Of a stretch of DNA of 64,000 nt, positions 8,671-25,642 are shown piece after piece. The position numbers and the translations under genes were made by a program. Where the stretch lies: positions 496,001-560,000 of the forward strand of contig NZ_CP071446.1 of NCBI RefSeq assembly GCF_017358165.1, in the 5' to 3' direction. The first letter of the stretch is position 1; every line of letters starts with the position of its first letter. The stretch comes from Thermosipho ferrireducens. Its GTDB lineage: Bacteria > Thermotogota > Thermotogae > Thermotogales > Fervidobacteriaceae. The notes beneath the pieces were generated by a model. It was given only the letters and a program-made list of their open reading frames with translations, made no database searches and had not been told where the DNA came from.

Positions 8671-10170
8671 TTATTTTGAAAAAAACTTTTTCAGTACAGT
8701 TTTCACTATCTCTTTATCCTCGGGATATAAGCCAAGCAACGTTAAAACTCCAAGCATTGTTACAAAAGCTATACCAGGAACCAATAGCGTCCCTACTAAA
8801 CTCGTTATAAAATATCTCAATATAAGCACAACAAACGTTGTTATAAACCCAGCAATCGCTGGTTTTATATATTTCAAGTTGTAGGGCAGCATTTTAAGTG
8901 CAATATAAACTTCTATTGACTTAACTATATTAACTGTCGAAATTGCAACCATTCCACCTATCGCAGAACCTATTATTCCATACTTTGGAACCAGCCATAT
9001 ATTCAATCCTATGTTCAAACTCGCAATAAAAACACCGTTTATCATCTCGTATCGCTGATATTTTGTCATTGAAAGCATTAACCCATTGGAACCTACCGCA
9101 GCATTTACAAACTGACCAAGCGCAAGAAATATGAGCACATATTTTGCTCCTGAAAATTCTTTTCCAAATATCTTCAGAATACTCTCAGAATATATTATTA
9201 TCCAGATAGTTATGGGAAGCGTTAAAGATATAATCCATCTTGTTATATCAGAATATAATTTCGAAAGTGTTTTCTTATCTCCTGTATGATAAAGCTCAGA
9301 AATCATAGAGGAAAATATCGAATTAAAAGCCATAAGGAAAAATACGGTTAATTGAGCGACAGTATCAGACACAGTATATAATCCAACGCTTTTTGAATTT
9401 AAATACATTCCCAGAATTAATTTATTCACCTGACCCATAAGAAAATACGTAAAACTTACAAATAACATGTTTGAAGAATATTTCAAAAGTTTCTTTCTTT
9501 CAACACGAGGCTTTATTTCACGATTAAACAAAAATGGTGCGTATTTTTTAAAACTCAGAAATAAAAGAACCAATATTACTATCGTTGAAATTACAGTTGA
9601 AGCTATAGCACCTGCAAGTTTATACCCTAAAAAGTAAAATATCAGGAAAAAACCTATTCTTATTATCCTTTCAACAACTTCTTTATAAAAGAAAAAGACA
9701 GAAGGTCTTTTTAACCCTTGAAAAGTGCCTGAAAAAAGATTTAAAAAAGAATAAAACAATAAGATTACAGAAAACCACGGCAAAATAGATATAAGTCTTT
9801 CATCGTGAAATATATTGATTGCTACAAATCTTCTAAATATAACCAGAGCAATTGAAAGTATTATGGACAATATACCTGTAATTTGAAAAGACGCAAATAT
9901 TACACCTTTCGCATTTGAAATATTATTTTTTCCAAGGTATTCCCCAAGAAACCTGGTCTGACCTGAGCCCATACCAAAAACGGCCACCATTACTCCAACA
10001 TTTGCAACTGTAAGACCAAGAGAATATAGCCCATATTTGTCAGCACCAAGAAGCCTCGCAAACAGTGTTTGCAGGGCAAAACCAAAAATAAAGCCTAAAA
10101 CTCTACTACTAAACACTAATCCCGCTTGTTTTGTAACAGTCTTTACATACCTATTGTATTTTTCGGTCAA
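8671..10170 (-). CDS. MOP-superfamily polysaccharide/lipid flippase
   Basis: This 499-residue membrane protein has about 12-14 hydrophobic helices and the N-terminal pattern of Wzx/RfbX flippases: VFSSRVLGFIFGFALQ, then LFARLLGADKYGLYSLGLT. Such proteins move lipid-linked sugars or related amphiphiles across the membrane. The start is taken as TTG because GGAGG lies 8 bp upstream; the upstream in-frame GTG overlaps that ribosome site. It sits 18 bp behind the AP-superfamily phosphohydrolase at the end of the sulfate-activation block. A role in exporting a sulfated or phosphorylated glycolipid is possible but is inference. MurJ is an alternative member of the superfamily. Confidence 0.85.
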   Translation of the reverse strand: MTEKYNRYVKTVTKQAGLVFSSRVLGFIFGFALQTLFARLLGADKYGLYSLGLTVANVGVMVAVFGMGSGQTRFLGEYLGKNNISNAKGVIFASFQITGILSIILSIALVIFRRFVAINIFHDERLISILPWFSVILLFYSFLNLFSGTFQGLKRPSVFFFYKEVVERIIRIGFFLIFYFLGYKLAGAIASTVISTIVILVLLFLSFKKYAPFLFNREIKPRVERKKLLKYSSNMLFVSFTYFLMGQVNKLILGMYLNSKSVGLYTVSDTVAQLTVFFLMAFNSIFSSMISELYHTGDKKTLSKLYSDITRWIISLTLPITIWIIIYSESILKIFGKEFSGAKYVLIFLALGQFVNAAVGSNGLMLSMTKYQRYEMINGVFIASLNIGLNIWLVPKYGIIGSAIGGMVAISTVNIVKSIEVYIALKMLPYNLKYIKPAIAGFITTFVVLILRYFITSLVGTLLVPGIAFVTMLGVLTLLGLYPEDKEIVKTVLKKFFSK

Positions 10171-10188
10171 ACACTGCACCTCCGAATT

Positions 10189-11514
10189 TTACAAAAAATA
10201 ATTTAACACAAAGTTTCTTATATCATATATTTCTCCTGGCACATCACCTTCTGAAGAAATTACAATCCCATCTACTGCGTGATTGGCATCATCTGGCCCT
10301 GTATCATTCTCATGAAGCCAGATACTTTCATTTCCAACTGTTCCCATTGAACGCCACTTTAAATTACCAAAATATATTATCAAATCAGGGGCAATGTTTC
10401 TTACTTCTTTATAAACTTCTTCAGGCTTAAACACTCTGGTTCCTATATTATTCCCCTGTTCATCTGTGATATTTTCCAGTTCTTTTATCAGCTGATCTCT
10501 AAAACTTTCATATTCCTCTTTCTTTACTATACCATTTGGTTCTCTTCCTTCAACGTTAATAAACAACCTACCGTAATATCCTCCCATTCCCCAGGCTTTT
10601 GTCTTAGACCAATCTATCATTCCATCAGATATAAGTTTCCCTATTCTGGTTGGTTTCTCAGGCCTTTCTTTAAGGACAAGATAGCCTTTTTCAATGAGCC
10701 AATCATTAATTGCTATTCCTCCATCCATTTTTTGAATCCCGTGATCTGAAGTAATTATTATAACAGTGTCATCGGGGAAGAGTGACACTAATTCCCCTAT
10801 TTTTTTGTCAATATATTTATAATAATCTCTTATAGCACTTTTGTATGGGCTATCTGGATCATGTTTAAAGTGGGTGCTATCATGATGTGCCCAAAATGCA
10901 TGATGCATTCTATCCACACCTATCTCAACCATCATAAAGAAATCCCATTCTTTTTCTGTTACAAGATGCTTTGCTACCTCAAATCGTTTTTCTGTCATCT
11001 TGTATATATCTTTTAAAAGTCTATCCTTGTCGTTAGTTCTAAAATTTTCAACATCAAACATATATTCCCCAACCCAATTTTTTATTTCTTTTTTCAATTC
11101 TTTTGGATAAGTAAAATCCACATCGGTACCCGGTGTAAGAAAACTTGTTACGAGATTTCCGTTAAGCTTTTTTGGAGGGTATGTAAGTGGAACACTTAAT
11201 ACTATACTTTTATAACCTTTCTTTGAAAGGGTATCCCAGATTGTTTCATCTTTTATCATCCTCGAATTTGCAAATGTAACAGAATCGTACGAGTAATCTT
11301 TGCGATTCCTGAAACCATATATTCCAAGTTCCCCTGGATCTTTTGACGTAACCATTGACATCCAGGCAGGTACAGTTATTGGAGGAATCGTTGATCTTAA
11401 AGGTCCGTAACTTTTTGCTATTTTTTGTATATTGTAAAGCTCATCCCAGAATTCTTCAAACATTAATACGGGATCAGCACAATCCAGTCCTATAACAGCT
11501 ACTTTTTTTGACAT
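10189..11514 (-). CDS. AP-superfamily phosphohydrolase/phosphomutase (type I phosphodiesterase-like)
   Basis: The 441-residue protein belongs to the alkaline phosphatase superfamily, close to COG3379. The metal site is seen in order: Asp in VIGLDCADP, the likely nucleophile Thr in PPITVPAWMSM, Asp and His in EIGVDRMHHAFW, the Asp-His pair in ITSDHGI and His in DDANHAVDG. No signal peptide is present, so it is probably cytoplasmic. It hydrolyses or transfers phospho- or sulfo-esters; the substrate is unknown. The start ATG follows AAGGAGG. It is separated from sat by a short repeat island and is followed closely by the flippase. Sulfatases share this fold, but the Cys/Ser-x-Pro-x-Arg signature is absent. 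Confidence 0.85.
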   Translation of the reverse strand: MSKKVAVIGLDCADPVLMFEEFWDELYNIQKIAKSYGPLRSTIPPITVPAWMSMVTSKDPGELGIYGFRNRKDYSYDSVTFANSRMIKDETIWDTLSKKGYKSIVLSVPLTYPPKKLNGNLVTSFLTPGTDVDFTYPKELKKEIKNWVGEYMFDVENFRTNDKDRLLKDIYKMTEKRFEVAKHLVTEKEWDFFMMVEIGVDRMHHAFWAHHDSTHFKHDPDSPYKSAIRDYYKYIDKKIGELVSLFPDDTVIIITSDHGIQKMDGGIAINDWLIEKGYLVLKERPEKPTRIGKLISDGMIDWSKTKAWGMGGYYGRLFINVEGREPNGIVKKEEYESFRDQLIKELENITDEQGNNIGTRVFKPEEVYKEVRNIAPDLIIYFGNLKWRSMGTVGNESIWLHENDTGPDDANHAVDGIVISSEGDVPGEIYDIRNFVLNYFL

Positions 11515-11554
11515 GTTCAAAGCCTCCTTTTCACACCAATTTTTCAATAATCCT

Positions 11555-11654: not shown

Positions 11655-12806
11655 TCACTTCTCCCCCTGATAAAATTCCATAAGAAGCCTTGCCACTTCC
11701 GGTCTTGTAAACTCTGCAGGGGGCATTTCACCATTTGATAACATTTCTCTTACCTTTGTACCGCTCAGGAATACATGATTTTCTTTATCGTGTGGACAGG
11801 TTTTACTCGTTGCCATATTACCGCATTTTTTACAATAAAAAGCGTGTTCAAATTTCAACGGTACTATTCCTATCTCTTCTGGTTTAAATTGATCAAATAT
11901 TTCCTGAGCTTCATACGTTCCATAATAATTACCAACACCTGCATGATCTCTTCCAACAATAAAGTGGGTACATCCATAATTTTTCCTGCATATTGCATGA
12001 AATATCGCTTCTCTTGGACCTGCATACCTCATGTTAACAGGGAAAACTCCCAAAAATACCCTGCTTTTTGGGTAATAATGCTCAAGGATTACTTCATATG
12101 AATGCATTCTCACTTCCGCAGGAATATCTCCTTTTTTTGTTTTTCCAACAAGAGGGTTAATAAACAATCCATCTACCATTTCAAGTGCTGTTTTCTGAAG
12201 ATATTCGTGAGCTCTGTGAATGGGATTTCGTGTCTGAAATGCAACAATTGTTTTCCAGCCTTTTTCTTCAAAAATTTTTCTGGTTTGCACTGGATCATAT
12301 CTGTATTCATTAAACTTTTCATGTTTTATCCTGTTGAGAAGTGTTATCTTTCCTCCAAGTGCTACATCTCCCTGGCTGTATAAAAACGCAACACCTGGAT
12401 GTGCATCTTCATCTGTTTTATAAACCTTTTTTGCTTCTTCTTTCTTTCTTCTTTCAAACCTCTCTTCGAGGTGAAGTACAGCATATATTTCTCCCTCGTA
12501 ATATATTGCTATATCTTCTCCTTCTTTAAATTGATTTGCTATATCTTTATCTACCGAAAGCACAATAGGTATAGACCATACTATTCCATTGCTTAGACGC
12601 ATATTTTCAAGAACGTTATCATAATCTGCTTTTGTCATAAATCCTTCAAGAGGACTAAAAAGACCTGTGGCAATATTCTCAAGTTCAGATACGTCCCAGT
12701 AGGATACCTGCAACTTTTTCATTTCTTTGACTCTTTTCAGAAGTTCTTCGCGCTTTTCTCCTGTTGCTATTCTGTTTACAAGTTTTCCTCCATGTGGTTC
12801 TATCAT
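11655..12806 (-). CDS. sat: Sulfate adenylyltransferase (ATP sulfurylase)
   Basis: Sat joins sulfate and ATP to make adenosine 5'-phosphosulfate (APS) and pyrophosphate in the cytoplasm. The 383-residue protein has the N-terminal PUA-like part, then the catalytic [13 protein letters not shown] motif (two His at the HxxH position) and the [12 protein letters not shown] loop. A CKKCG...C..H zinc cluster near the C-terminus is also seen in other monomer-type bacterial and archaeal Sat proteins. Length is normal for the single-domain enzyme; no APS kinase domain is fused. AAGGAGGG precedes the ATG. APS kinase and an SLC13 transporter lie upstream in the same run, so sulfate uptake and activation are coupled. 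Confidence 0.95.
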
Positions 12807-12810
12807 TTCT

Positions 12811-13239
12811 TTACCCTCCTTTTATTTCGCATTTTTTATCTTTACACCAGGTGTATATAACCGGCTTTAATATTTGCCAGTAAGGATTGTAACCTCTTTT
12901 GTAAACAAAAATGTATTTATCTCCTTTGATATCATCAAGCACATTTATAAATTTGCCTTTTACTTTTTTTGATCTAACATTTATCCCTTTTTCTTTCAAA
13001 AATTTTTCCGCATCATTTACAAATTTATCCGCCATTTGTTCATATTGCTTTTTTAAAAAATTTGCTATTTCCTCTATTGTTTTATCCCCAAGCCATCCTT
13101 TTTCCACAGCAATTTCTGCAGCAAGTTCCACTATTTGCTCATCTATTATCTCAAGTAAAAAAACTTCGCTTTCCTTTTTAGCTACCTTTAAAAGCACTTT
13201 TTTGTTTTCTTTGAAATCTATTGGAACAAGAAGCGTCAT
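12811..13239 (-). CDS. Small Usp-like (HUP-fold) protein of the sulfate operon
   Basis: A 142-residue soluble protein. The opening [20 protein letters not shown] and the following [10 protein letters not shown] strand resemble the first strands of the universal stress protein fold. The middle contains a helix ending in [19 protein letters not shown], as in UspA proteins before the fourth strand. The usual ATP-binding GxxGxxxxxxxG[ST] loop near the C-terminus is not seen. The start is the ATG of an ATGA overlap with the SLC13 gene; reading further upstream would only translate SLC13 out of frame. Usp-type proteins sometimes accompany transporters as cytosolic partners. That role here is inference and the fold call is tentative. 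Confidence 0.6.
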
Positions 13240-14540
13240 ATTATCACCTTCCAGACTACTGTGCCAAAAAGTATTATAGAAACTACAGCAACTACTTCCA
13301 ATAAAATCCCATATTTTATGGTATCGCGTAAGTCTATCCGCCCCGTTGAAAGCGCTATTGCCACCGATGGCGAACTCATTGGCAGCATGAATGCAAATCC
13401 TGCGGGAATCGTAACAGCAAGTGTTGCAAGACGTGGGTCTATACCCATACGAGTAGCGGCAGGAAGTGCTATCTGCATAAGCATTACAACAACCGCTGAA
13501 TTGCTCATCGTTTCTGTCAATACCAAAGCACTTATGCTGAGAAGTACAAGAAATAAACCTCCCGGCATATTTTTTATATACTCTACAAACCATGAAGCAA
13601 CTCCTGTTTGCTGGAGCATCTTTCCCAGCACTATAGCCCCACCATACATTAATATAATTCCCCAATTCACATCCTCTTCCACTTCTTTCCATTTAATTAG
13701 CTTCAACATAAACAAAATTATAACCGCAGCAAGTGATATATTAGCTATCCCAAATTTTTCGCCATATGAAAACCAAAAAAATATCGAAGCTGCCATAATC
13801 ATTCCAACCTGAATTTGTCGTTTTGTAGTAGAGATTTCTTCCACGTGAATTTCCAACTTTTCATAAGGTGTTATTTTAAAAAGTAAAATACTTGATGCTA
13901 TGGAGGTTGTAACAACAATTGGCAAAGAAGCGATACTCCATTTTGAAAATGAAATACTTTGTCCGTTCCACGCCTGTAAAAGAGCAATAGCAAGAGGCCC
14001 TCTTGCCCCTCCAAGTAACGTCGCATTACTCCCAATTATTGCTCCCCACATTACAGAAAAAATAAGCGGTTTTAGAAGTTTTTCACTGCTTCTTACCTCC
14101 AGAACGATAGGTATCAATATTGCCACAACCGCATGGCCGGACATAAGAAAGGAAAGAAACATAGCTGTATACTGAACAAATAATACCAGAGCTTTAGAAC
14201 TTTTCGAAAGTTTTATCATTGAAAAAGCTATCTTTTTGCTCAGTCCTGAGCGTTTAAAAGCCGACGCCAGTATAAATGACCCAATAAGAAAAAATACAGC
14301 AGTATTGCCAAAATAACTATAAACTTCTTTAGAACTTGCAAGGCCCATTAATGGAAAAGCAACAATGGCAAAAAGACTTGTTATCATCAAAGGGACAACA
14401 TTTGTTATCCACCAGAAGAGACTGATAGCAAAAACACTCAGGGCTTTAAAGCCCTGAATAGTCAAACCAGCTGGAGGTGATAGGAAATAGGGAAGTAAAA
14501 AAACGATCAGAGAAATTCCAAATATTATCTTTCGTTTCAT
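13236..14540 (-). CDS. SLC13/DASS-family anion permease, probable sulfate transporter
   Basis: The 434-residue membrane protein has about a dozen hydrophobic segments and the two related halves of the divalent anion:Na+ symporter family. The first half carries ALSVFAISLFWW and the motif region SGHAVVAILIPIVLEV. The second carries ETMSNSAVVVMLMQIALP, then GFAFMLPMSSPSVAIALSTG, which match the SNT-type substrate and sodium motifs. Family members carry sulfate, phosphate or dicarboxylates. Its place between cysC and sat makes sulfate the likely substrate. Its TGA overlaps the next ATG by four bases and its start lies next to the stop of the small RHH gene, so translation is probably coupled. Confidence 0.88.
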   Translation of the reverse strand: MKRKIIFGISLIVFLLPYFLSPPAGLTIQGFKALSVFAISLFWWITNVVPLMITSLFAIVAFPLMGLASSKEVYSYFGNTAVFFLIGSFILASAFKRSGLSKKIAFSMIKLSKSSKALVLFVQYTAMFLSFLMSGHAVVAILIPIVLEVRSSEKLLKPLIFSVMWGAIIGSNATLLGGARGPLAIALLQAWNGQSISFSKWSIASLPIVVTTSIASSILLFKITPYEKLEIHVEEISTTKRQIQVGMIMAASIFFWFSYGEKFGIANISLAAVIILFMLKLIKWKEVEEDVNWGIILMYGGAIVLGKMLQQTGVASWFVEYIKNMPGGLFLVLLSISALVLTETMSNSAVVVMLMQIALPAATRMGIDPRLATLAVTIPAGFAFMLPMSSPSVAIALSTGRIDLRDTIKYGILLEVVAVVSIILFGTVVWKVII

Positions 14541-14541
14541 A

Positions 14542-14745
14542 TTAATCTAAATACCCTAAGTCCCTCAGCCTCTTTTTTATTATTTCTTCCTCTTCTTCGC
14601 TGAAAACCTGTTCTTCCTGTTCATCGCTTTTCAATACTTCTTCAAGAACAAAAACTACGTATTCATCGACACTATTAAAGCCAAATTCCTCAAGATTCTC
14701 TTCTATTTTTTTGTAAAGTTCGTCAGGAATGTTCACCTGTTTCAT
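14542..14745 (-). CDS. Small ribbon-helix-helix (CopG-like) protein
   Basis: A 67-residue protein with a short beta strand (KQVNIPDELYKKIEE), then two helices (SVDEYVVFVLEEVLK), the ribbon-helix-helix pattern of CopG/MetJ DNA-binding proteins. An acidic linker (EEQVFSEEEEE) leads to the tail KKRLRDLGYLD. The same tail, KKRLKDLGYFD, ends the RHH protein at the start of this operon. It overlaps the PHP gene by four bases. It may bind DNA as a dimer or pair with the other RHH protein; the acidic linker would be unusual for a plain repressor. Function is inferred from the fold only. Confidence 0.7.
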   Translation of the reverse strand: MKQVNIPDELYKKIEENLEEFGFNSVDEYVVFVLEEVLKSDEQEEQVFSEEEEEIIKKRLRDLGYLD

Positions 14746-15551
14746 ATACCCACCTCCTCAAAAAATGGATTGATATCTTCCAAAGGTACTTCCATTCCAA
14801 GTTGTATATCTTTATTGTTGCCATGAAAATCACTTCCTGCTGTTATTAAAAGATCAAATCTCTTTGCAAGATTTTTATATTGCTCAATCTGTTTTTGTGA
14901 ATGCTCTGAATAATACACCTCAATGCCTCTAAGACCATAAGAAATTAGCTTTTTTAATAAATTTTCCAGTTCCTCATCATCAAGGTGAGTTTGATACGGA
15001 TGAGCAAGTACAGCTACCCCACCAGCCTGTACAATTAGCTCTATTGCTTTGTCTGGATTCAATCGCTTTTTATCTATGTAAAACAACGCACCTTTTTTTA
15101 GATATTTGTCAAACGCTTCCTGGTAAGATGTTACATAACCTTTTTTTAAAAAAAGCTGAGCAAAGTGAGGCCTCCCTATAAGATCTTCCCCTGCTATCTC
15201 CCTCAGTTCATCCATTGTTATATCAAAACCATATTTGTTCATCTTCTCCACCATTAATTCGTTTCTTTTTGACCTATATTGTTGAAGCTGTCTTAATACC
15301 CTGTTCAATTGTTCATTATCTGGATCAACATTATAGCCAAGAATATGAAGTGTCCCTGGAAATTCCGCGCTTATTTCTACACCGGGAACAAACTTTAAAT
15401 TTCTTACATTTACATTTTTTACACCGTCAATAGTGTCATGATCTGTTATAGACAAAAACTCGATCTGTTTCTCCAGAGCAAGTTCAACGATTTCTTCAGG
15501 AGAGTATGTCCCATCTGAGACTGTAGTATGCACATGCATATCTACAAACAC
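14742..15551 (-). CDS. PHP-domain phosphatase (TrpH/YciV-like), candidate pAp phosphatase
   Basis: The 269-residue protein begins FVDMHVHTTVSDGTYSPEEI and continues with SITDHDTIDG, the first two motifs of the PHP metal site. Later ligands are in VLAHP and AGSDFHG. The length and the insert around residues 100-165 match the TrpH/YciV branch. Members of that branch have been shown to hydrolyse nucleoside 3',5'-bisphosphates, including pAp, and short RNA 5' ends. It lies directly behind APS kinase with one base between them. pAp is the by-product of PAPS use, so pAp removal is the likely job. That link is inference from context plus family knowledge. Confidence 0.82.
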   Translation of the reverse strand: MFVDMHVHTTVSDGTYSPEEIVELALEKQIEFLSITDHDTIDGVKNVNVRNLKFVPGVEISAEFPGTLHILGYNVDPDNEQLNRVLRQLQQYRSKRNELMVEKMNKYGFDITMDELREIAGEDLIGRPHFAQLFLKKGYVTSYQEAFDKYLKKGALFYIDKKRLNPDKAIELIVQAGGVAVLAHPYQTHLDDEELENLLKKLISYGLRGIEVYYSEHSQKQIEQYKNLAKRFDLLITAGSDFHGNNKDIQLGMEVPLEDINPFFEEVGI

Positions 15552-15552
15552 G

Positions 15553-16155
15553 CTATATTATCCCCTTTTCTTTAAGATAATTCATCACTTTTTCCACTGA
15601 CTCTTCCAGACTTTCTTTATCTGTTTCTATCAATATTTCAGGATTTTCAGGTTCCTCATAAGGTGCGCTGATTCCTGTAAATTCTTTTATTTCTCCAGAA
15701 AGTGCCTTTTTATACAACCCTTTTGGGTCTCTTTCAATAAGAACCTCTATTGGGCATTTTACAAATATTTCAATAAACTCTCCATCTTTTAATAGCTTCC
15801 GCGCTCTTTCCCTATCAACTTTATATGGAGAAATAAAAGCAGTCATTGTAATAACTCCAGCATCAACGAATAATTTTGCAACTTCTCCTATTCTTCGAAT
15901 ATTTTCCTTTCTATCTTCAGGAGAAAAGCCAAGATCACTGTTAAGCCCATGTCTTATATTATCGCCATCTAAAACATATGCCAGCTTTCCCATATCATGA
16001 AGTCTCCACTCAACTTCTCGAGCAATAGTAGATTTTCCAGAACCGGAAAGCCCTGTAAACCAGAGTAAAACTCCCTTTTGTTTTAAAAGCTTTTCCCTTT
16101 CTTCTTTAGATACCTTTCCTTCATGCCAGTAAATATGTTTGGATTTTGGTTCCAC
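15553..16155 (-). CDS. cysC: Adenylylsulfate (APS) kinase
   Basis: APS kinase phosphorylates APS to PAPS, the activated sulfate donor. The 200-residue protein has the Walker [10 protein letters not shown] (residues 35-43), the [16 protein letters not shown] substrate motif, the [10 protein letters not shown] helix and the FISPYKVDR lid segment. All are diagnostic, and the length is normal for a stand-alone enzyme. The start is a GTG with a GGAGGTG site somewhat further upstream than usual. It is the second gene of the operon, after the RHH regulator, and works with the downstream sat. Confidence 0.95.
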
Positions 16156-16179: not shown

Positions 16180-16416
16180 CTAATCAAAATACCCAAGATC
16201 TTTTAATCTTTTTTTCAAAGCTATTATTTCTTCTTTTGTGAGTTTTTCAAAACCAAGTTCATCTGTTTTTTCATGCTGCTCTACATCAAGCGTTACTAAA
16301 TCTCGTAGTACATCTACAATGAACTCAGTAACACTACCGTAGCTCGTGTCTTCAATTATTTTTTTTATTCTTTCATACAAAAGTTTTGGAATTTTGATAG
16401 TAACCTTTTCTCTCAA
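16180..16416 (-). CDS. Ribbon-helix-helix regulator of the sulfate-activation operon
   Basis: About 78 residues. REKVTIKIPKLLYERIKKII forms the DNA-binding strand and first helix; GSVTEFIVDVLRDLVTL forms the second helix. This is the classic RHH layout. The C-terminal tail reads TKEEIIALKKRLKDLGYFD and matches the tail of the second RHH protein in this operon. The start is placed at TTG 16416 because AGGTGAT lies just upstream; GTG codons at 16425 and 16431 are alternatives, but they would run into the operator repeats. It is the first gene before cysC and lies next to three 11-bp direct repeats, so it probably controls its own operon. Confidence 0.75.
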   Translation of the reverse strand: MREKVTIKIPKLLYERIKKIIEDTSYGSVTEFIVDVLRDLVTLDVEQHEKTDELGFEKLTKEEIIALKKRLKDLGYFD

Positions 16417-16429
16417 ATCAATCACCTGC

Positions 16430-16476
16430 ACTCTTATTGTACTCTTATAAGACTCTTATCGTAGTACATTATACCA
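16430..16476 (-). promoter_or_regulatory. Promoter and three-repeat operator of the sulfate-activation operon
   Basis: On the minus strand the extended -10 box TATGGTATAAT (TATAAT at 16473-16468) is followed by three direct copies of ATAAGAGT. On the plus strand these read ACTCTTAT at 16430-16437, 16441-16448 and 16452-16459. Spacing is exactly 11 bp, one helical turn. Tandem short direct repeats are the known target type of RHH repressors. Position just after the -10 box suggests repression. Confidence 0.65.
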
Positions 16477-16555
16477 TAATTTCACGTACAGGTAATTTAA
16501 AAATCCCTCCATTTTTGCCAGGCAATGAGCCCCAACTCTTTTGCTTTTTATTTTT

Positions 16556-16858
16556 TTACTAATTCTCGCAAGATCCTTCGTCGTTTCCCTCCTCAGGACA
16601 GGCCTCGCCAATCTCGCTAACTCTCGCCAACCTCGCTAATTATAAGATTCCTCGTCGCATACGCTCCTCGGAATGACAAAGGAGGTGGATTTCTCGCCTT
16701 CCCGCTCCTCGGAATGACAAAAAAGGAAGTCATCCTGAGAAGCGTCAGCGACGAAGGGGATGTCATCCCGAGGAATGTAATGACGAGGGATCTTATTTTT
16801 TTACTAACTCTCGCTAACTCTTGCTAATCTTGCTAACCTCGCCAATCTCGCCAATAAT
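16556..16858. repeat. Intergenic hairpin-repeat island 6
   Basis: Five hairpin units, three reverse then two forward, with long runs of the CTYGCYAAY tandem module at both ends (16612-16640 and 16802-16858). It separates the divergent sulfate operon and pyrG. The sequence between the operator and the island (16477-16555) has no gene. Confidence 0.85.
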
Positions 16859-16948
16859 AACGAACTTATTATTTATTTAACTTTAAAGCAACATGAATTA
16901 TAAATAGAGATAGTAAAATATCCTTAGTAATCCTTGGGAGGGAGAAAA

Positions 16949-25039: not shown

Positions 25040-25585
25040 CTTATTCTTTATTGTCATCCCGAGGAATAAAATAACGAGGGGGATGTCATCCTGAGCGTAG
25101 CGAAGGATCTTATTCTATTCTTTTTCCCAACCTCGCTAACTCTCGCTAACCTCGCTAACACTTGCCAAATACAAGATTCCTCACCCTTCGGGTTCGGAAT
25201 GACAAAAAAGGGAGTCATCCTGAGGAGCGCAGCGACGAAGGATCTTTTCCTTACTGTCATCCCGAGGAATGAAATGACGAGGGATCTTATATCACCAATC
25301 TCGCTAATCTCGCCAACCTTGCTAACAAGATTCCTCGTCGCATTCGCTCCTCGGAATGACACAGGAGAGGGATTCCTCGCCTTCACGCTCCTCGGAATGA
25401 CATAAAAAGAGTGTGTCATCCCGAACGCACGCGAGGGATCTTATTTTTTTTACCAACCTCGCTGTTTTTTTGTCATTCCGAACGTATGTGAGGGGGATGT
25501 CATCCTGAGGAACGAAGTGACGAAGGATCTTATTCTTTTTACTATCCCTCGCCAACCTTGCTAATCTCGCTAACTCTCGCCAATT
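25040..25585. repeat. Intergenic hairpin-repeat island 7 (largest)
   Basis: About ten hairpin units in both orientations, with three tandem-module runs (near 25128, 25288 and 25555). Clean examples are 25088-25108 (ATCCT with AGGAT outer arms, GTA loop) and 25217-25243 (two G.A steps, GCA loop). It fills almost the whole gap between the chemoreceptor and the SRPBCC gene. Long open frames in it are repeat translations. Confidence 0.85.
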
Positions 25586-25642
25586 ATGTGTTATCATTTT
25601 AATCGATTATAAAACAAAAAAAAATAAAAAGCAGGTGAAAAA

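Follow-up and report, generated by a model that had tools for sequence, protein, structure and literature searches.

The window, by which we mean the whole 64,000-nucleotide stretch of Thermosipho ferrireducens DNA analysed here, contains a cluster of nine genes on the minus strand, joined by short or overlapping junctions and preceded by a short repeat array (Table 1). The first gene is an 83-codon ribbon-helix-helix (RHH)-like frame, RHH1, whose protein is 78–83 aa long. Because the gaps between the genes are short, the cluster is probably transcribed as a single RNA. The 143-aa protein encoded between the SLC13 symporter and sat matched no family above cut-off, with a sub-threshold match to Ntox33, and it is conserved in Thermotogota at 28–35% identity. 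The near-complete host genome has sat and APS kinase; a search for PAPS consumers, which took in the PF01507 (PAPS reductase) and Sulfotransfer_3 families, found no match to either. With neither family matched, a classical reductive route is an unlikely destination for the PAPS.

Table 1 Features of the predicted sulfate-activation operon and its upstream region (window positions)
Feature	Position	Strand	Basis or remark
Putative operator array, three ATAAGAGT units, period 11	16430..16459	-	sequence; conserved in homologues
Extended -10 element TATGGTATAAT	16468..16478	-	consensus match only
RHH1, predicted ribbon-helix-helix regulator, KVTIKIP strand, C-terminal KKRLKDLGYFD	16180..16416	-	TTG start probable; alternative GTG 16431
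cysC, APS kinase	15553..16155	-	PF01583 E 3.8e-69; NF003013
PHP phosphoesterase, best match 3',5'-nucleoside bisphosphate (pAp) phosphatase	14742..15551	-	NF041577 E 1.6e-63, under curated cut-off
RHH2, second small RHH-like protein, C-terminal KKRLRDLGYLD	14542..14745	-	sequence
DASS/SLC13 sodium-coupled anion (sulfate) symporter	13236..14540	-	PF00939 E 5.3e-41; TIGR00785
Conserved 143-aa protein, no assigned family	12811..13242 (approximate)	-	syntenic in Thermotogota
sat, sulfate adenylyltransferase	11655..12806	-	PF01747 E 9e-104; NF003166
Alkaline-phosphatase (AP)-superfamily type I phosphodiesterase	10189..11547	-	PF01663 E 2.6e-46; recurrent RHH1 neighbour (synteny)
MATE/Wzx-like polysaccharide flippase	8671..10179	-	likely last gene of operon

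The initial annotation had described three 11-bp direct repeats between a -10 box and the start of the RHH gene, and the sequence bears out both the repeats and their position. On the plus strand, ACTCTTAT occurs exactly at 16430–16437, 16441–16448 and 16452–16459, with start-to-start distances of 11 and 11, and each unit reads ATAAGAGT on the gene (minus) strand. TRF reported a period of 11 with 3.1 copies, and the order on the gene strand is TATGGTATAAT-GTACTACG-ATAAGAGT-CTT-ATAAGAGT-ACA-ATAAGAGT-GCAGGTGATTGATTTG. Within the 64 kb this was the sole exact 8-mer triple with a constant spacing of 8–25, and none arose in 100 dinucleotide shuffles. Even the exact tandem pair was found only at this locus in the 1.98-Mb genome, where 0.004 pairs were expected. 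A whole-genome search for further targets in the same genome gave none that was convincing, the next best hit having two mismatches and lying inside a long ORF.

The -10-like TATAAT lies at 16473–16468 on the minus strand with TGG just before it, forming an extended -10. The range given earlier for this region, 16430–16476, holds for the repeats but not for the complete TATGGTATAAT, which ends at 16478, two bases past it. Translation of RHH1 probably starts at TTG 16416, which follows GGTGAT, rather than at GTG 16431. Starting at this TTG would place the array in the 5' leader, at about +3 to +32 from the predicted transcription start.

RHH1 is well supported as an RHH protein at the level of its family, by sequence more than by structure. 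PF01402 (RHH_1) matched 18 of the 31 family members, with a best E value of 2e-6, whereas the match of the window protein alone was weak (E 0.056). When the family profile was compared with the PDB, the nearest solved relative was the NikR DNA-binding domain (2bj1, E 2.8e-4). An AF2 model of modest confidence (pLDDT 64) placed helices at residues 11–22 and 29–43 after the N-terminal KVTIKIP; its best PDB matches were the RHH domains of ParD and PrpA (TMt ~0.63), with an E-value that was not significant. The mapped neighbours of RHH1 were cysC, sat, PHP, RHH2 or an AP-superfamily gene. A type II antitoxin of the ParD, RelB or CopG-like kind was considered and rejected, as the mapped loci have no adjacent toxin gene. 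No RHH1 homologue was found in the plasmid collection.

To see whether the site is conserved with the regulator, we compared the sequences preceding 32 dereplicated homologues, which came from Thermotogota, KSB1, Aminicenantes and Acidobacteriota; most of them have it. RHH1 homologues occur in 13 of 103 Thermotogota genomes. GAGTG or CACTC was present upstream of 22 of the 32 homologues against 3.8 expected, with the reservation that homologues within one clade are not independent. Pairs of these motifs were spaced by 11 in 10 regions, by 22 in 4 and by 33 in 1, and almost nowhere else in the 32 regions, whereas shuffles gave a mean of 0.006 pairs at spacing 11. The pairs take the form of direct repeats or of the palindrome CACTC-N6-GAGTG; the regions carry CACTCTTATAGGAGTG and its variants, often with another GAGTG 11 bp further. 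In an anchored alignment, information was concentrated on CACTC-N6-GAGTG and on an unanchored GAGTG peak between +11 and +15, the flanks being flat; because anchoring inflates the GAG columns, the argument rests on the other columns.

About 10 of the 32 homologues lacked a nearby GAGTG site, mainly in the SVNEF clade and where RHH1 is internal to an operon, and several Petrotoga-like RHH1 promoters had one half-site only. In a divergent clade whose ribbon reads RVSIKIP in place of KVTIKIP (L158–L161), the GAGTG array is missing, and three of the four members carry an array of three to four GATTGGGTCCT-like units in its stead, likewise with an 11-bp period. An operator that changed together with the strand reading it would look like this, although a single clade shows the pattern. 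The initial annotation had named homologous operons without the repeats as an outcome that would speak against an operator; most of them keep the site, across phyla and at the same promoter position. The conserved site near homologous genes thus lends comparative support to a predicted operator of the adjacent RHH gene.

The site also follows the promoter and the regulator where the gene order differs. In G084, where PHP leads and RHH1 comes second, GGCTCCAATTGGAGTGT is found immediately after the -10 box of PHP and not at RHH1. In the genus g34, which we read as Petrotoga-like, RHH1 is apart from cysC-sat, and CCCTCTRATTRGAGTATAAT was found upstream of cysC in five of six species, the five being close relatives; it lay within ~100 nt of cysC in four species and ~340 nt upstream in one. 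By contrast, four cysC upstream regions from RHH1-negative Thermotogota lacked such a site over 450 nt. The RHH1-positive genomes G052 and G035 depart from the pattern: the 450 nt before their unlinked cysC hold no site. The palindrome CACTCYNATNRGAGTG was present in 5 of 7 RHH1-positive versus 1 of 75 RHH1-negative genomes of one phylum (Fisher p 5e-6), and in 5 of 24 versus 2 of 273 genomes of another (Fisher p 4e-5). The copies in RHH1-positive genomes lie partly away from the regulator, in G110 within a gene and in G215 at another promoter. The extra palindromes in G110, G277 and G322 appear inside or across genes and were treated as chance, as was the one in the RHH1-negative G487, which is in an unrelated place. 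Counting strong matches only, APS kinase was found in 13 of 13 RHH1-positive and 9 of 90 RHH1-negative Thermotogota. Together with synteny, this co-occurrence upholds the earlier link to sulfate activation.

Two further promoters may be noted. In two KSB1-group genomes (L210 and L212), the palindrome precedes a PstS-like ABC transporter gene, behind a -10-like sequence, making this gene a candidate second target in that group. At L221, in the RHH1-positive genome G215, CACTCTTATAAGAGTG lies exactly between the TTGACA and TATTAT of an ABC-ATPase/HypB-like operon.

The array is very probably the operator through which RHH1 negatively autoregulates its own sulfate-activation (PAPS) operon. That the same site stands before related operons in distant phyla makes it almost certainly RHH1's own, and its conservation at the promoter of the regulator's operon is consistent with autoregulation, as proposed in the initial annotation. 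Repression rather than activation is suggested by the position of the site, between the -10 and the start codon or between the -35 and the -10. In the mechanism that we propose, the N-terminal ribbons of RHH1 dimers (KVTIKIP, invariant in the nearest homologues) would enter successive major grooves, where GAGT half-sites follow one another at every helical turn (11 bp). Sites whose centres are one turn apart, whichever way they point, are what one would expect for RHH dimers, whose two-fold symmetric ribbon reads a short subsite and which stack side by side, as in RelB/Arc (PMC2812701), AmrZ (PMC3325190) and omega with its mixed heptads (PMC4803016). Such stacked dimers would cover the stretch from the -10 box to the ribosome-binding site, and bound RHH1 would shut off transcription of RHH1, cysC, PHP, RHH2, SLC13, sat, the AP phosphodiesterase and the flippase.

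Several other explanations of the array were weighed. That it is a chance or simple-sequence repeat, in part a Shine–Dalgarno sequence, has next to no probability: GGAG copies close to some start codons do look Shine–Dalgarno-like, and some could double as such, but the array was absent from all shuffles, and this explanation accounts neither for the period of 11 bp nor for the inverted CACTC arm or the cross-phylum conservation. On these grounds we ruled out a chance origin. The repeats might instead work at the RNA level, in a hairpin of the leader, a riboswitch or an attenuator, since the array falls within the predicted leader and, upstream of RHH1 in G045 (L172/L094), a strong terminator-like hairpin (z -6.1) with a T run behind it encloses the site. 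However, the leader in the window folded no better than shuffles (z -0.05), two other leaders gave z values of -0.75 and -0.57, and an Rfam search matched no family to it. The direct-repeat forms are also unable to pair with themselves, and the -35/-10 spacer is where the site falls in G215 and at the cysC promoters of the Petrotoga-like genomes, so that it is not transcribed there. We therefore rejected a riboswitch or attenuator and regard a role in RNA as very unlikely. The G045 hairpin around the operator may be an attenuator, or it may terminate the gene before it.

It is also quite unlikely that another factor, such as the paralogue RHH2 or a global regulator, binds the array and that RHH1 is a mere neighbour. 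RHH2 does belong to this operon, and before an RHH2-like gene in L050 CACTC and GAGTG stand at a distance of 22 bp; on the other hand, several RHH1 operons keep the site without a nearby RHH2, the presence of the site tracks RHH1 across phyla, and its sequence differs in the clade with a differing RHH1 ribbon. Activation by RHH1, or activation combined with repression, would have a parallel in RHH proteins such as AmrZ, which perform both roles (PMC3325190), but the sites between the -10 and the start codon or in the -35/-10 spacer are where repression would be expected, and we consider RHH1 unlikely to be other than a simple repressor.

Autorepression by RHH1 would resemble several known RHH systems. 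AmrZ is an autorepressor acting on amrZ1 (PMC3325190), and RelB, which represses its own synthesis at relO, has been modelled on the 22-nt Arc operator (PMC2812701). Like Arc, AmrZ and RelB-type proteins, RHH1 is predicted to be a small RHH protein whose dimers sit side by side on one DNA face, at paired half-sites, and repress their own gene. It differs from them in its half-site, GAGTG; in the genes it accompanies, which serve sulfate activation and include no toxin partner; in the LGY tail conserved at its C terminus; and in having both direct and inverted arrays. The omega repressor of inc18 plasmids, of the MetJ/Arc family, has operators in which a short repeat likewise occurs in both orientations, direct and inverted (PMC4803016), although these are 7-bp heptads, 5'-NATCACN-3', that serve plasmid maintenance genes. 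Among solved structures, the NikR N-terminal domain is the nearest in sequence to the part of RHH1 that would bind DNA; membership of the NikR family was rejected, as the profile match is limited to that domain and the 78–83-aa protein (78 aa in its shorter form) has no C-terminal nickel-binding domain and no room for one, ending in a short tail instead.

The repressor MetJ had been offered as a model in the initial annotation. A met box is 8 bp long, and the corepressor of MetJ is S-adenosylmethionine. As an analogy this stands, in that RHH1 is predicted to share with MetJ an RHH-type repressor, tandem sites and a place in sulfur metabolism. Kinship does not: the period is 11 bp rather than 8, the core is GAGTG, the operon makes PAPS rather than methionine, and MetJ was absent from the PDB and family matches.

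RHH1 and RHH2 share a conserved RLKxLGYL-type tail ([FY]S.EEE..I.+RLK.LGYL). Among 88 sampled APS kinases, 5 carry the same tail as an extension past their normal C terminus, and AP-superfamily sulfatase/phosphodiesterase proteins from related operons have it too (examples of the tail are the two window proteins and L007, L036, L177, L178 and L180). This distribution suggests that the shared tail may be a docking module. A more doubtful extension is that RHH1 senses the pathway through its LGY tail rather than through a small-molecule pocket, with enzyme and repressor competing for, or docking on, a common partner; if so, the level of the enzyme would be coupled to transcription.

What is known of how sulfate activation is regulated comes mainly from model organisms. 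The open-access literature, to which our search was confined, held no account of this regulator or of RHH control of sat-cysC. RHH1 is a new predicted regulator that belongs to the known RHH kind; members of its small family, and an operator that can be recognised, are predicted in several phyla that are mostly uncultured. Such an operator offers a direct route to finding PAPS operons and what they target. For the question of how RHH ribbons read DNA, a natural data set is provided by the array together with its inverted form and the clade in which repeat and ribbon are both altered.

A separate set of repeats lies at 16560–16860, between RHH1 and the divergent pyrG. It consists of repeated CTCGCTAA/CTCGCCAA-type units with CCTCGTCG...GGAATGACA segments and is apparently a dispersed family, similar sequence being present near 25054–25600.
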